A stretch of DNA of 64,000 nt, from the NCBI GenBank assembly GCA_910574865.1, contig CAJTDN010000015.1:1-64000 (forward strand), read 5' to 3'. Both the position numbers and the translations under genes were made by a program. Under the pieces are notes generated by a model. It was given only the letters and a program-made list of their open reading frames with translations, did not search any database and was not told the DNA's origin. This document shows, piece by piece, positions 2,701 to 31,656 of this stretch (positions are counted from its first letter, which is position 1; every line of letters starts with the position of its first letter). This stretch comes from Lachnospiraceae bacterium (GTDB lineage: Bacteria > Bacillota > Clostridia > Lachnospirales > Lachnospiraceae).

Positions 2701-2898
2701 CGGCAGTTTGTTGTGGAGTTGAAGATTTGGCGGGGAAATGAGTATAATTTACGCGGTGAAGAGCAGTTGTTTGGTTATTTGGACGCTTATAAACAAGAGA
2801 GGGGTTATTTGCTGGGTTTAATTTTTAATAAAAATAAGAAACCGGGGATACAAGAATTGGAATACAAAGGGAAGAGAATTTTGGAAGTGGTGGTTTAG
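2701..2898 (+). pseudogene. C-terminal remnant of an AAA-ATPase/PD-(D/E)XK nuclease-like protein
   Basis: About 65 codons (QFVVELKIWRG ... GKRILEVVV) match the end of the predicted AAA-ATPase/DUF1703 proteins common in Lachnospiraceae. There the VELKIW strand belongs to the PD-(D/E)XK-like nuclease fold. The ATPase part is missing: a stop lies in frame just upstream at 2692, and the ISLre2 remnant sits immediately 5'. I infer that insertion or deletion at the IS removed the rest. A GTG at 2713 could still start a 61-residue peptide, but nothing suggests function. Confidence 0.6.
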
Positions 2899-2899
2899 C

Positions 2900-3553
2900 A
2901 TGGTGATGCAAAGTCAAAATCAGAATGTGAATTACCAGAAGGAACTGGACAAGCTATTGGAGCGTCTACGCGAGGAACAACGCGTGCCGCGCCTTTTGCT
3001 CCACAGTTGCTGCGCACCGTGCAGCAGCTATGTGTTGGAATATTTATCCCAATATTTTGAAATTACGGTTTATTATTATAACCCGAACCTTTATCCGGAC
3101 ACGGAGTTTGCCAAACGTTCCAAGGAGCAGCAAAGGTTGATTGGAGAAATGGAAGTTCGGCATCCGGTTTCTTTCGTGGAGGGGGCGTTTGACAAGGAAC
3201 GCTTTTACCAGGCGGCATCCGGGTTGGAAGAGGTACCAGAGGGTGGTGAGCGGTGTTTTCGTTGTTACGAACTGCGGCTTTCGGAAGCGGCGAAACTGGC
3301 AAGGGAGGGAGGGTTTGATTATTTTACTACCACTTTGAGCATCAGTCCCTTGAAAAATGCCCGAAAATTGAATGAAATCGGGGAGAAGTTGGCGGCGGAA
3401 CATGGGGTGGCCTACCTCGTTTCGGATTTTAAGAAAAGGGACGGATACCGCCGTTCGGTGGAGTTGTCCAAAGAGTACGGACTGTACCGGCAGGATTATT
3501 GCGGGTGTGAATTTTCCTGGCGGGAGAGGGACGGGAGGGCAAAAGAGCGATAG
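2900..3553 (+). CDS. queH: epoxyqueuosine reductase QueH
   Basis: 217-residue protein of the QueH (former DUF208) family. QueH catalyses the last step of queuosine synthesis in tRNA, reducing epoxyqueuosine to queuosine, and replaces the unrelated QueG. Visible hallmarks are HSCCAPCSS near residue 36, a second pair in RCFRCYELRL, the ITTTLSISPLKN-type segment, and a C-terminal DYCGCEFS. The clustered cysteines hold an Fe-S cluster and an extra metal in characterised members. The start is ATG 2900 or 2906; a GGAAGTGGTGG stretch lies just upstream. The gene follows the IS debris and converges on the DUF362 gene. Confidence 0.9.
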   Translation: MVMQSQNQNVNYQKELDKLLERLREEQRVPRLLLHSCCAPCSSYVLEYLSQYFEITVYYYNPNLYPDTEFAKRSKEQQRLIGEMEVRHPVSFVEGAFDKERFYQAASGLEEVPEGGERCFRCYELRLSEAAKLAREGGFDYFTTTLSISPLKNARKLNEIGEKLAAEHGVAYLVSDFKKRDGYRRSVELSKEYGLYRQDYCGCEFSWRERDGRAKER

Positions 3554-3582
3554 GACACCTTCCCGTCATTTTTCCGTCATGG

Positions 3583-4677
3583 TCATTGCCAGTTCTTTTC
3601 TAAAAACTGGATGATGTCCAATGCTTTTGGCGGGCAGCCGGGCAGGTGGCGGGAACAGTTCTTCGTGCAGGAACCGACGCCAATTTGACCGGCAGAATCC
3701 TTCCATCCTTGCCCGATGCAGACTCGCTCTTGTTTTCCATGCGTGTTTCCCCGCTCGTCAAGACGTTCCAGCGCGTAGACGAGGGAGCCGTAGCAGGCAC
3801 TGCAGGCATCGCGGGCATCCGTGTATTTTTCCAATTTACGGACGCGTTCGGTCGCCTTCTTGTTCGTTTGGCCGCCAATCGGCTGGTTCAGCATGACGAT
3901 TCGCGCGTTGGCCGTGTTTGTGTTTCCGATGCCCAGTTGTTCGGCGATACGAATGTAAGGCACGTCATCAACGGCATACCCGATGCTTTCGCACACGTAT
4001 GCGTCGCAAAGAACCGGATCCAGGCAGGCGAAAATCCGATTCATGACGACGGGATTTCCTCCCTCTTCAAAGTTTAAGTCCCCGCAAATGTTGTCAACCA
4101 AGACGAGCCCGTGGGGAATCACGGTATTTAAGTGCGCGATGGGCTTGTGCAGTCCCATCGTATGGAAGCGGCGTTTTTCATTGTTTGGAATCACCCCTTT
4201 GGCATTTTTCAACGCGCAAGTGACGAGTGTTTGGCAGTGTCCTTTTAAAACGGGCATGTTAATGAGAAAATCCGTATTTTTGACTTCGCTGCACAAGTGC
4301 AGGGTCATGCCGGCACCGTCGCATGGATAGGAAGAGTCCTTTTGCAGGTCGTAAAACGGAACCTGGTATTTTCTGCATATGGAAGCAACTCCGGAAGTCT
4401 CGAAGGCACGGGACGTCCTGGCACCGACCCAGGAACCCTCCATGACCTTTACATTTGGAAAGTCGTGGCTTTTCAGGTAAAGCAACACTCCTTCTACCAG
4501 TTCGGGGTGCGTGACCGCCCCGTTCGACGCGTCGTCGTCCAATATCAGGTTGGGTTTTAGCGCGACTCGTTTCTCCTTGTCGCCAATGAGTTCGTCCAGG
4601 TGGATTGCTTCTAAAAGCTTGATGGTCATTTGAACGTAATCCGTTCCATGAATCATTACGATTTCTTCTTTTTTCAT
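3583..4677 (-). CDS. DUF362 domain-containing protein
   Basis: 364 residues from an ATG with a good AAGGAGAAACC ribosome site. The upstream extension to 4731 is not needed. The DUF362 fold is recognisable: KPNLILDDDA near the N-terminus, GSWVGARTSRAFETSG, a GHCQTLVTCALKNAKGVIP stretch, and DNICGDLNFEEGGNP. The C-terminus is cysteine-rich (CSACYGSL, GSCTKNCSRHLPGCPP), suggesting a metal or Fe-S site. Family members often appear beside redox or cofactor genes, but the reaction is unknown. The gene runs towards queH and away from a dead AraC regulator. Confidence 0.8.
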   Translation of the reverse strand: MKKEEIVMIHGTDYVQMTIKLLEAIHLDELIGDKEKRVALKPNLILDDDASNGAVTHPELVEGVLLYLKSHDFPNVKVMEGSWVGARTSRAFETSGVASICRKYQVPFYDLQKDSSYPCDGAGMTLHLCSEVKNTDFLINMPVLKGHCQTLVTCALKNAKGVIPNNEKRRFHTMGLHKPIAHLNTVIPHGLVLVDNICGDLNFEEGGNPVVMNRIFACLDPVLCDAYVCESIGYAVDDVPYIRIAEQLGIGNTNTANARIVMLNQPIGGQTNKKATERVRKLEKYTDARDACSACYGSLVYALERLDERGNTHGKQERVCIGQGWKDSAGQIGVGSCTKNCSRHLPGCPPKALDIIQFLEKNWQ

Positions 4678-5265: not shown

Positions 5266-5316
5266 ATTAGTGCCAGGTGTACAGAATGCGTGTTGCCCTC
5301 CATATGCTGGCGCTAA
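5266..5316. repeat. miniature palindromic repeat (fused inverted termini)
   Basis: The left half (ATTAGTGCCAGGTGTACAG) and the right half (GTGTTGCCCTCC then CTGGCGCTAA) match the two ends of the 27803-28107 element with the middle deleted. AGTGCCAG pairs with CTGGCGCT (one G-T wobble). The large copy instead has AGCGTCGG with CCGACGCT, so the changes are paired. Confidence 0.6.
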
Positions 5317-25680: not shown

Positions 25681-25880
25681 TTCTGCCCATGAAAATGGTA
25701 TTGTCCTGGAATGTTCGACAACCTTGTAATTTTGAACCTACAAAACTTTAAACGGGATTCCTACATTTCTGTAATATGTCAGGCCTCCGAGATACGCAGT
25801 GGAAGACAGAAAAGCAGATGCGGTTGCCCACCTAGCTTCAGGCTAGGAGTCAAAATACAGGGAACGGCATTTTGGGCTTT
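25681..25880 (+). ncRNA. ssrS: probable 6S RNA
   Basis: The closing stem pairs GCCC..AAAATG (25686-25696) with CATTTT..GGGC (25868-25877), about 195 bases apart, the usual 6S size. Inside are stretches I recognise from clostridial 6S RNAs: TTTGAACCTACA, TTTAAACGGGATTCCTACAT, GTCAGGCCTCCG, CAGTGGAAGACA, and GCGGTTGCCCACCTAGC with its small CCTAGC-ttca-GGCTAGG hairpin. 6S RNA mimics an open promoter and holds sigma-A RNA polymerase in stationary phase. A leader from 25631 contains GGCAGAA, which can pair with TTCTGCC at the 6S 5' end, so the core may be processed from a longer transcript. Confidence 0.7.
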
Positions 25881-25893
25881 ACAAAAGATGAGT

Positions 25894-26959: not shown

Positions 26960-27074
26960 GGAACGGCCAAGATAAAATTGGCGAGGTTATTATATTGACA
27001 CGATGGTTTTTGATAAAGCCGCATCCATGCCAATTAACCATGTGAGCCGTGGAGAAAGGAAGGGGAAGGGACGA

Positions 27075-27722
27075 ATGAGGTTATATTTTGTAAGGCACGG
27101 GGAAACGGACTGGAACAAGGCGAGGCGGGTGCAGGGGCATTCGGACATCCCGCTAAACGAGTATGGGAAATATTTGGCGCGGGAGACGGGCAAGGGGCTT
27201 GCAAACGTACATTTCGACCTGGCTTATACGAGTCCGCTTGTACGTGCGCGGGAGACGGCCGAGCTGATTTTGGAGGGAAGACGTGTTCCCGTTATCGTGC
27301 ATGAGAAAATCAAGGAACTGGGATTTGGCGAATATGAGGGAATTTGTATCAGCGGGGAGCACAAGGCGCCGGAAACGGAGGAATTTAACAAGTTCTTTAC
27401 CGATACCGCACATTATGTCCCGGCAAAAGGTGCGGAGTCGATAGAGGGGCTTTTGGGGCGCACGCGGGAATTCTTGGAAGAACTGTACCAGAACCAGGAT
27501 CTTGGAGACAAGACGATTCTGCTTTCATCGCACGGGGCGGCGATGACGGGGCTTCTAAACAATATCAAGGGCAAGACGGAGGCGGCGGATTTCTGGAAGC
27601 AGGGAGTGCCGCCCAATTGTGCCGTGACGATTGTGGAGGTGGAAGATAAAAAGCCGACGATTGTCGCCGAAAACGTGGTGTATTACAAGGAACCGGTGCG
27701 GACGTGGAACGTGGGAGAGTGA
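27075..27722 (+). CDS. histidine phosphatase family protein
   Basis: 215 residues from ATG 27075 (GGGGAAGGGACG upstream). The RHGETDWN motif supplies phospho-accepting His8; LGFGEYEG and LSSHGAAMTGLL provide the remaining catalytic pocket. Members include phosphoglycerate mutase-like and alpha-ribazole phosphatases (CobC); substrate cannot be assigned from the sequence. It ends just before a large palindromic element. Confidence 0.85.
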   Translation: MRLYFVRHGETDWNKARRVQGHSDIPLNEYGKYLARETGKGLANVHFDLAYTSPLVRARETAELILEGRRVPVIVHEKIKELGFGEYEGICISGEHKAPETEEFNKFFTDTAHYVPAKGAESIEGLLGRTREFLEELYQNQDLGDKTILLSSHGAAMTGLLNNIKGKTEAADFWKQGVPPNCAVTIVEVEDKKPTIVAENVVYYKEPVRTWNVGE

Positions 27723-27802: not shown

Positions 27803-28107
27803 AATTCATCATGATTAGCGTCGGTGTACAGAAGGCAACACGGTCGATGAAGGGCATATTTCCCCTCTTTCGTCGTTACTTTCACTCCGCGTACGTCCTT
27901 GTACGCGTCGCTCAAGTGCCTTGAAAGGGGGGAAATATGCCTCTTCACGACTCTGCGACCTCACCCATAGGGAGTTCAAGGGTTTTCACGGAAGATGAAT
28001 GAGGCGTACAAGGACGTACGCCGATTGAAGATAACGCTGAAAACCCTTGAAATCACATGTGCTGAGGCGTGTTGCCCTCCGTACACCGACGCTATTGATG
28101 AATGGGA
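27803..28107. repeat. large palindromic element with inverted termini and two nested arms
   Basis: The left terminus 27814-27843 and the right terminus 28067-28096 are inverted copies (26 of 30 bases match); ATTCATC lies outside both. Arm A: a 19-bp stem 27853-27871/27923-27941 enclosing GCGTAC-gtcctt-GTACGC (27889-27906). Arm B: a 14-bp perfect stem 27975-27988/28038-28051 enclosing GGCGTAC-aaggac-GTACGCC (28003-28022). The caps are the same sequence in inverse orientation. The outer stems share nothing yet both pair. Open frames inside look incidental. Confidence 0.7.
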
Positions 28108-28232: not shown

Positions 28233-29867
28233 TCAATCGTCTTCTTCACGTTGTACCGTGTACGTCTGGCGTTTCCTTGCCATCTCGTCGCTTTCCAGGT
28301 ACTCGTCGTAGGTCGTAATCTTGTCAATCAGCTTGCCGCCCTGTACGATTTCCATGATGCGGTTGGCCGTGGTCTGGACAATCTGGTGGTCGCGGGAGGT
28401 GAACAGTATCACGCCCGGAAACTTTATCATGCCGTTGTTGAGCGCGGTGATGGATTCCATGTCCAAATGGTTGGTCGGCTCGTCAAAAACCAGGACGTTC
28501 GCCCCGGAAATCATCATCTTGGATAGTAAGCAGCGCACTTTCTCGCCTCCGGACAATACCTTCAGGCGTTTGACCCCGTCCTCGCCGCCAAACAACATCC
28601 GTCCCAGGAAACCGCGGACGTATGTCGCGTCCTTGATTTCGGAATATTGCGTCAGCCATTCGGTGATGGTATAGTCGCTGTCGAATTCTTCGCCGAAATC
28701 CTTCGGGAAATAAGCCTGCGAGGTCGTGATGCCCCATTTGTAAGTTCCACTGTCTGGTTCCATTTCTCCGGTCAGGATTTGGAAGAGCACGGTCTTGGCC
28801 AGCTCGTTGCTGCCGACGAAGGCCACCTTGTCATCGTGACCTAATGTAAACGTGACGTCGTCCAGCACCTTCACCCCGTCAATCGTCTTGGAAAGTCCTT
28901 CCACGGCGAGCACCTCGTTTCCAATCTCGCGGTTGGGACGGAAGTCGATATAAGGGTATTTGCGGCTGGACGGCTTAATCTCATCCAGTTGAATTTTTTC
29001 AAGGGCACGTTTCCTGGAGGTCGCCTGCTTCGACTTGGAGGCGTTGGCGCTAAAGCGGGAAATGAATTCCTGCAGTTCCTTGATTTTTTCCTCCTTTTTC
29101 TTGTTCGCCTCTTTCATCTGGCGAATCAAAAGCTGGCTGGATTCATACCAGAAATCGTAGTTCCCGGCGTAAAGCTGGATCTTGCCATAATCGATGTCCG
29201 CAATCTGGGTACAGACCTTGTTCAGGAAATAACGGTCATGGGACACCACGATGACCGTGTTTTCAAAATTAATCAAGAATTCTTCCAGCCAGGCGATGGC
29301 GTCCAAATCCAGGTGGTTGGTCGGCTCGTCAAGCAAGAGGATGTCCGGGTTGCCGAACAAGGCCTGCGCGAGCAATACCTTGACTTTTTCAGGTCCCGTC
29401 AGGTCCTTCAAGTTTTTGTAATGCAGTTCCGCCTCGATGCCGAGGCCGTTCAAGAGGCTGGCCGCGTCAGACTCCGCCTCCCAGCCGTTCATGGTGGCGA
29501 ATTCGGCTTCCAGTTCGCTGGCGCGTATCCCGTCCTCGTCCGTGAAATCTTCCTTGGCGTAGATGACCTCCTTTTCCTTCATGATTTCATAAAGGCGGGC
29601 GTTTCCCATGATGACCGCGTCAAGCACCGGGTATTCGTCATACTTGGACTGGTCCTGCTGCAAAAAGGAGAGCCGCTCGCCCGGGGTGATGACGATTTCC
29701 CCGCCCGTCGGCTCGAGCTGTCCGGACAAGATACGCAAAAACGTCGATTTTCCCGCACCGTTGGCACCGATGATGCCGTAACAGTTACCACCGATAAATT
29801 TGATGTTTACGTCTTCAAATAACGCCTTCTTGCCGAGGCGCAACGTAATGTTGTTTGCACTGATCAT
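28233..29867 (-). CDS. ABC-F family ATPase (YkpA/YbiT type)
   Basis: 544 residues from ATG 29867. Two ABC domains joined by a helical linker and with no membrane part, so it acts on the ribosome. First Walker A GANGAGKST; Walker B LLLDEPTNHLD in both halves; the first signature is degenerate (LTGPEK), the second is LSGGEK. The second Walker A is altered (GSNELAKTVLF). Both oddities match my memory of B. subtilis YkpA, so they are family traits. It belongs to the ABC-F translation-factor or ribosome-protection class. Its leader has a strong nested hairpin and its own promoter. Confidence 0.92.
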   Translation of the reverse strand: MISANNITLRLGKKALFEDVNIKFIGGNCYGIIGANGAGKSTFLRILSGQLEPTGGEIVITPGERLSFLQQDQSKYDEYPVLDAVIMGNARLYEIMKEKEVIYAKEDFTDEDGIRASELEAEFATMNGWEAESDAASLLNGLGIEAELHYKNLKDLTGPEKVKVLLAQALFGNPDILLLDEPTNHLDLDAIAWLEEFLINFENTVIVVSHDRYFLNKVCTQIADIDYGKIQLYAGNYDFWYESSQLLIRQMKEANKKKEEKIKELQEFISRFSANASKSKQATSRKRALEKIQLDEIKPSSRKYPYIDFRPNREIGNEVLAVEGLSKTIDGVKVLDDVTFTLGHDDKVAFVGSNELAKTVLFQILTGEMEPDSGTYKWGITTSQAYFPKDFGEEFDSDYTITEWLTQYSEIKDATYVRGFLGRMLFGGEDGVKRLKVLSGGEKVRCLLSKMMISGANVLVFDEPTNHLDMESITALNNGMIKFPGVILFTSRDHQIVQTTANRIMEIVQGGKLIDKITTYDEYLESDEMARKRQTYTVQREEDD

Positions 29868-29918
29868 GTTAAAATCCTCTGTTTCTGAAATAATGTTTGC
29901 GGTTACATGCGTTTCGCA

Positions 29919-29970
29919 GGCCGAATGCCATGCGGCAAAAAACCATGGTTTCGTAAATGGCATTTTGGCC
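29919..29970 (-). promoter_or_regulatory. three-tier hairpin in the ABC-F leader
   Basis: Minus strand: GGCC, then AATGCCAT pairing with ATGGCATT, enclosing palindromic AAACCATGGTTT, closed by GGCC. It sits between the promoter and the start codon, a place where ABC-F genes often carry attenuators. Confidence 0.55.
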
Positions 29971-31223: not shown

Positions 31224-31470
31224 GATGTTGGGGTCAAAACAAGTTCTGCCCCCATGATACCCACGGATTACTCCGCACTACGTGCTCTCGTTGTCTCCGT
31301 TCCGCTACGGTCGGCACTAAACGAACGTCCACTGGACGTTCAGTGCCCTAAAACACCTCAAATCCGCTCATTTTCCTACGGAAAATGGCTACTTTTCGGT
31401 GTTTTGCGTACTTCCAAAGTCATGCTTTTCCATGCAGGCATGGAACACATGACCTTTTGACCCTGGTATC
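31224..31470 (+). ncRNA. candidate structured RNA or palindromic element
   Basis: The ends 31224-31239 and 31455-31470 pair over 16 positions on the plus strand, four of them G-U. Inside are at least three two-tier arms: GGCACT/AGTGCC around GAACGTCCA/TGGACGTTC (31313-31347); AAAACACC/GGTGTTTT around ATTTTCC-tac-GGAAAAT (31350-31405); GTCATG/CATGAC around CCATG-cagg-CATGG (31419-31453). GCAC-tac-GTGC and CCGT-tccgct-ACGG lie in 31261-31311. No gene is evident. Confidence 0.5.
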
Positions 31471-31656
31471 TTAGAAATTAGTATATCATAGAATTCTTCC
31501 GTGTTCAATTAGAAAAAAGGTTGTATTTGGGTAAAAAAATCAATCTTGGGGTTTTCGAAACGGGAAAAACAGTTTATAATGTATCAATAGGAGTGGGCAA
31601 AAACGATGCCCCACTCTTGTTGAAACGGATTTTAGACGGAAAGGACAGTGAGACAA

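Follow-up and report, generated by a model that had tools for sequence, protein, structure and literature searches.

Bacterial MITEs are usually treated as the decayed ends of insertion sequences, without content of their own. Nezha of cyanobacteria is a palindromic MITE, and such MITEs (RUP, Correia, Nezha) have a TA duplication. In the IS5 superfamily, the duplication is TA for the IS427 group and TNA for the IS1031 group. REP/REPIN elements, which occur with RAYT, are short palindromes present in high number, and IntI recombines the attC sites of integrons in the form of a folded bottom strand. RUP of pneumococcus and the Correia elements of Neisseria, likewise palindromic bacterial MITEs, are covered in a review (PMC10969869).

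The locus compared with these systems lies in a window of 64,000 nucleotides, the whole stretch of DNA analysed, from a Lachnospiraceae genome, and it consists of a palindromic element with two internal arms. Like RUP, Correia, and Nezha, this element is short and gene-less, has inverted ends with TA at them, is present in many copies, and has a sequence whose transcripts would fold. Unlike them, it resides in a genome where no IS630-type transposase (DDE_3) was found, and the core in its arms, which is kept as a fold, occurs in elements of two phyla that differ in their ends and in the length of their duplications. Duplications of 2 and 3 bp, with most of 17 triplets being TTA or TAA, are shared with the MITEs of the IS5 superfamily, but no matching autonomous copy was present among 30 PF01609 loci. 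The resemblance to REP/REPIN lies in short palindromes in high number, but the Y1 transposase is absent in three end-rich genomes and target duplications are present. As for attC sites, it is the shape of a folded single strand and not the sequence of its stem that would matter, but here conservation is seen near the tip rather than at the base, and the elements give rise to target duplications. The element itself is a MITE, of a known kind, and the unusual part is a core conserved in its fold and its mismatches across two phyla and between elements whose ends differ. A search by title and abstract, with most subscription papers and all preprints outside its coverage, returned no description of the core or of the elements.

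Extent, copies, and target sites of the element

The first-pass annotation described a palindrome at 27803..28107 with long inverted ends and two internal arms, a common GCGTAC/GTACGC cap in opposite orientation, and outer stems unrelated in sequence that nevertheless each pair, and all of these features were recovered. The palindrome is real, but the unit is smaller than described, since the ends common to the full copies in the genome delimit a repeat of 279 bp (27816-28094) and the flanks differ between copies. The wider limits were ruled out because the 13 bases on each side belong to the insertion site and are absent from the other full copies; the flank at this site carries ATTCATCA/TGATGAAT, an eight-base inverted repeat of the site and not of the element. 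The RNA fold of 27803-28107, a check proposed with the annotation, was far more stable than that of shuffled sequences (-158 kcal/mol compared to a shuffled mean of -88; z = -15.6), with none of 100 shuffles as good. The two arms (Table 1) represent one hairpin core, inverted relative to each other, and one half of the element is ~72% similar to the reverse complement of the other.

Table 1. Positions of the two-arm element, its parts, and its miniature relative in the window
Feature	Position	Strand	Basis
Entire two-arm element, with both terminal TAs	27816..28094	.	Limits common to the full copies of the genome
Left terminal inverted repeat, TAGCGTCGGTGTAC...	27816..27842	+	27 bp
Right terminal inverted repeat	28068..28094	-	27 bp
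TA, presumed target duplication, first copy	27816..27817	.	TA at both ends in 35/37 copies; partner at 28093-28094
Arm 1; core in conserved orientation on the minus strand	27843..27951	-	R2 match 27859-27936, minus, E = 6e-15; helix 2 of the ten-sequence two-arm alignment
Arm 1 tip stem-loop (GCGTAC...GTACGC)	27888..27907	.
Arm 2; core in conserved orientation on the plus strand	27959..28067	+	R2 match 27974-28051, plus, E = 1.4e-17; helix 4 of the ten-sequence two-arm alignment
Arm 2 tip stem-loop	28003..28022	.
Miniature relative, two ends joined, no arms, 48 bp	5268..5315	.

The element is flanked by a gene for a histidine phosphatase (27003-27722, +) and one for an ATPase of ABC-F layout (28233-29963, -), in what had rightly been called a gap without a gene. 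No open reading frame of 60 aa or more lies wholly within the 279 bp, and those that overlap the element extend past it. Elsewhere in the window, a 6S RNA was placed at 25700-25882 on the plus strand (Rfam RF00013, 55 bits) and a Clostridiales-1 RNA at 31255-31471 on the minus strand (Rfam RF01699).

At least 37 full copies, the window copy included, are present in the 5.3-Mb genome (96.4% complete), a number that is a lower bound because only a limited set of candidates is scored in the DNA searches. Identity to the window copy, taken as the reference, is 94.3-98.6% for the other 36, which have unrelated surroundings, different for each. Partial copies are also present, and the arm-core model gave 101 matches at E <= 0.001 in the same genome. 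Further copies, the search for which had been proposed with the annotation, were thus found in this genome as well as in others, and their placement at unrelated sites bears out the suggestion of a palindromic mobile repeat; the mobility of the element is well supported. The plasmid and phage collections contained no match to the window's element.

TA is present at both ends in 35 of the 37 full copies, and none of the 37 has a direct repeat of 2, 3, 4, 5, 6, 8, or 9 bases beyond it. In 66 of 74 flanks, A or T occupies the fourth position out from the TA; this position was picked out post hoc, and a symmetric preference of this kind would be expected from a DDE transposase. One copy (L007, C1:130904-134195) interrupts pglZ of a BREX-like locus in the same genome. 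The PglZ model PDLC02564 (PADLOC; 855 positions) is matched as far as position 387 by the left flank of this copy and from 389 onward by the right flank, and the frame across the joint runs for 532 codons with one TA, compared to 307 with either none or two. The left part of this pglZ is also fused to the start of pglX, indicating that the locus underwent a second event, and the defence locus looks inactivated. A second copy (L028, C4:4630-8912) lies within an ATPase-like gene of the same genome, from which ~55 residues seem to be absent at the insertion, as if a deletion accompanied the element.

The comparisons made for empty sites of two-arm copies yielded none. Orthologous spaces without the element are present in genome G007, too diverged for the joint to be read; the empty-site comparison in S. 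coelicoflavus was not clean, and loci L376 and L367 showed no difference at the element. The TA duplication of the two-arm element is presumed from its ends and from the frame of one gene, the pglZ whose left part is fused to pglX.

Pairing and spread of the hairpin core

Two-arm elements of 275-281 bp with like ends were identified in G010, which belongs to the same genus, and in G014, G055, G084, G153, G250, and G323. Ten sequences were aligned, two from the element's own genome and the others from these seven, and 91.0% of the cells in the alignment pair. Of the 103 pairs in the whole element, 41 are changed on both sides, as compared to 5 to 16 in slid versions of the alignment and with none of 500 shuffles as high. 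By part, both-side changes account for 9/25 pairs in the end stem, 17/35 in arm 1, 13/28 in arm 2, and one in each tip. The terminal inverted repeats form helix 1, with 25 pairs and 96.8% of cells paired across the 10 sequences. The selected structure claimed in the first-pass annotation is supported by these divergent copies, which keep their pairing, and by the arm core alone; the annotation had staked this claim on there being further copies whose stems covary, and both were observed.

The core follows the pattern CAAGGC...GANNGA[stem-loop]GANNGA...AACGC, read on the minus strand in arm 1 and on the plus strand in arm 2, and lies at the tip of each arm. Fourteen sequences chosen by the GTAC tip alone were used to build model R1, which was evaluated on 55 matches in 48 loci, in an alignment fitted to the model. 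In this set, 92.3% of cells pair, 240 cells are changed on both sides compared to 69 in shuffles (0/500), and the covariation score is 0.713 compared to 0.205 in shuffles (0/500). Both-side changes are seen in 16 of the 17 core pairs, a count reached by 58 of the 500 shuffles, while the other four measures were reached by no shuffle. The four mismatch cells beside the tip are A.G in 49/55, G.A in 53/55, A.G in 55/55, and G.A in 53/55, with all four kept in 47 of the 55 matches, and a further tandem in the core is A.G in 41/55 and G.A in 37/55 in the same model-fitted alignment.

A free alignment of 40 sequences (A2) gave both-side changes in 22 of 23 core pairs, with no shuffle out of 500 reaching that count, in a set where pairing is favoured by leaving out L205 and L210 because both have an insertion in the outer stem. 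A2 was made from 45 rows by removing two false matches (L189, L285) and four irregular rows (L109:761-837, L128, L205, L210) and adding the window's arm 2. Its G.A pairs (40/40) are no evidence, since the selection pattern itself required GANNGA on either side. What is kept in the core is a fold, through sequence at the mismatched places and pairing elsewhere, and Lachnospiraceae and Streptomyces records show almost the same core pattern.

With stricter filters that lose weak matches, R1 matched in 42 of 299 genomes of the family (E <= 1e-4) and R2 in 22 of 398 genomes of the phylum, the element's own genome being counted in both. The R2 matches in the phylum span 13 families, and 11 families have a match at E <= 1e-6. 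Among the best 80 of 120 stretches with the exact core pattern, 27 have Streptomyces in their titles, the others Lachnospiraceae, Blautia, Roseburia, Clostridia, or similar names. R1 also matches two Streptomyces plasmids (E = 9e-12), and no viral contig was found with the exact pattern.

At most of the core loci read, the element is a one-arm palindrome, roughly 140-200 bp long, whose ends differ from those of the two-arm element. In the one-arm family with ends GGAACTGTG, identical triplets are found on both sides of 17 of 20 copies (TTA, TAA, TAT, and CAG, mostly TTA or TAA), while triplets further out are identical in none of the 20, a 3-bp duplication. A core-bearing element on a Streptomyces atratus plasmid is absent from another strain, the difference of 161 bp representing a polymorphic insertion between flanks of 99.5% identity (372 bases) and 100% identity (472 bases), with a duplication of TTA if the ends are symmetric and TTAG at most. 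Given TA in the two-arm element and 3 bp in one-arm elements, the core is carried by elements of two or more duplication lengths. Other arrangements were also seen: one locus (L109, G322) has two inverted cores ~60 bases apart, without clear terminal repeats and unlike the two-arm element, and in two Streptomyces species (L246, L257) one-arm elements occupy the same position next to a shared gene, through either an old insertion or repeated targeting.

Miniatures and the mobilising enzyme

The stretch 5266-5316, taken in the first-pass annotation for a further copy, is related to the element by its ends but is an armless miniature and not a full copy (Table 1). Comparable forms recur in other genomes. 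In G014, six of the nine miniatures read are armless, 52 bp long, and share the same internal joint, which is also shared by a seventh of 50 bp, and in G323, three of the seven read have a common 69-70-bp form. The simplest reading of these common joints is that miniatures may spread as such, with the ends sufficing for movement, the alternative being repeated identical deletions. Since armless miniatures appear to spread too, the core seems to serve something beyond transposition. In the element's own genome, five loci (L041, L045, L052, L062, L068) are single-ended, with the first ~45-50 bases of the left end followed by unrelated sequence, so that they end near the base of arm 1, and three others (L050, L056, L061) contain part of the right end only. 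The single-ended copies count against the transposon explanation, which leaves them unaccounted for.

DDE_3 (PF13358), the domain by which an IS630/Tc1-type MITE would be assigned, had no match in the element's own genome, which is 96.4% complete; an IS630-type mobiliser may once have been present and since lost. Thirty of 45 matches to PF01609 (DDE_Tnp_1) from eight genomes were examined with four end patterns, and none had the ends as terminal repeats, although some of these loci hold an element or a miniature elsewhere. Y1_Tnp was absent from G010, G002, and G250, despite 116, 29, and 56 end matches, respectively, and mobilisation by RAYT/Y1 was rejected on this absence from three end-rich genomes together with the target duplications.

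Around unpaired end matches in G673, G529, and G667, considered as possible autonomous elements, no transposase was recognised by eye among the four longest open reading frames at each of 11 loci, nor was one seen by eye among the listed clusters of open reading frames common to loci. The features listed for Streptomyces plasmid records with ends of two families, covering 60 of 97 and 9/9 records, likewise included no transposase. At locus L162 (G323), an open reading frame at 2774-3958 resembles an IS110 transposase by eye and lies ~410 bp from a miniature, making it a possible candidate mobiliser. The mobilising transposase is probably of the DDE type, and the duplications of 2 and 3 bp lead us to suspect the IS5 superfamily as its source, judging by the target rules of the IS427 and IS1031 groups.

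The folding strand and what the core may do

Isolated mismatches in the stems were counted on the strand with the conserved pattern. G.T exceeds A.C by 82 to 31 in 71 distinct elements, with 43 elements leaning one way and 12 the other, counts that are inflated by shared descent as related elements are not independent. These 71 are the elements with an alignment score >=22 out of 100 distinct, 12 of the 100 being from two-arm elements. The corresponding counts are 70 and 25 in the 40-sequence alignment and 41 and 7 in the model-fitted alignment. Two-arm elements lack the excess, with G.T and A.C at 6 and 8 in arm 2 and 6 and 9 in arm 1, most elements being counted from both sides. The G.T excess points to one strand folding alone, as either RNA or single-stranded DNA.

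The orientation of one-arm elements relative to their neighbours was determined for 96 of 187 distinct elements, after removal of 45 two-arm elements, 20 at contig edges, 18 within open reading frames, and 8 far from genes. With neighbouring open reading frames picked by length and without annotation, the left neighbour is on the same strand in 45/96 and the right neighbour in 45/96, a random orientation that speaks against a cis-acting leader or tail RNA. No match to the element at gathering score was obtained with Rfam 15 over the whole window, and relaxed scans of four elements gave scores far below gathering, nearly all to microRNA models. The structured RNA offered in the first-pass annotation gained nothing from either the Rfam searches or the orientation counts.

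We consider it likely that the element is a non-autonomous DNA transposon of the MITE type, moved in trans and inserting at TA, with arms that carry the fold-kept core. A transposase supplied in trans would recognise the inverted ends, and the element would insert at TA and duplicate it, movement as such seeming to need only the ends. The core would act in folded single-stranded form, most probably as a DNA hairpin that becomes exposed during replication or transposition, and a protein reading this folded core would raise the success of the element, with RNA as an alternative. Our best guess for the function of the core is thus protein recognition of a folded single strand, with DNA preferred over RNA. 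More tentatively, the core may be an undescribed conserved structured nucleic-acid domain, with tandem G.A pairs in a hairpin that varies elsewhere, recognised in its folded single-stranded form by a widely conserved protein.

That the core is instead a structured RNA, transcribed from outside or inside an element that is its carrier, is possible but somewhat doubtful. It could serve in protein binding, as an RNase III site, or as a trans-acting small RNA, and covariation around kept G.A mismatches would fit such an RNA, as would the preference for G.T over A.C on one strand, seen in the 71 elements; with two oppositely oriented arms, one properly oriented core would result whichever strand was transcribed. 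The random orientation of the 96 one-arm elements does not favour it, nor does the lack of an Rfam family at gathering score in the window or the relaxed scans of four elements, whose hits were not credible. A slightly less probable explanation is that the mobilising transposase itself binds the core, an internal enhancer common to a whole transposase family, as would be consistent with its conservation across element families and with the placing of one inverted core toward each end of the two-arm elements. This is difficult to reconcile with armless miniatures that have common joints in G014 (6/9 read) and G323 (3/7 read), and with the occurrence of the core beside two duplication lengths, TA and 3 bp.

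Palindromes like REP/RAYT, moved in single-stranded form by a Y1 (HUH) transposase, share with these elements the large number of short palindromic miniatures and a preference for folding on one strand, but we regard this explanation as very improbable given that Y1_Tnp was not found in G010, G002, and G250, that target duplications are present, and that no fixed tetranucleotide is found beside the element. Equally improbable is an inert palindrome spread by transposition, with arms that pair only through descent from one inverted duplication. The likeness of the two halves of the element as reverse complements (~72%) is in keeping with such a descent, but changes on both sides with pairing kept, compared to shuffles and slid controls, argue against it, as does a core pattern nearly the same in Lachnospiraceae and Streptomyces.

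Returning to a folded single strand read by a protein, the presence of one core in elements with different ends and duplications, in two phyla, suggests a common reader. The core is suited to direct use in assays of binding, processing, and transposition, and any genome can be searched for it with the covariance model. If the core is such a protein-read domain, it would be a transposon-borne signal that helps spread or persistence and is not needed for transposition itself, and several transposon lineages of Bacillota and Streptomyces would carry it for that reason.
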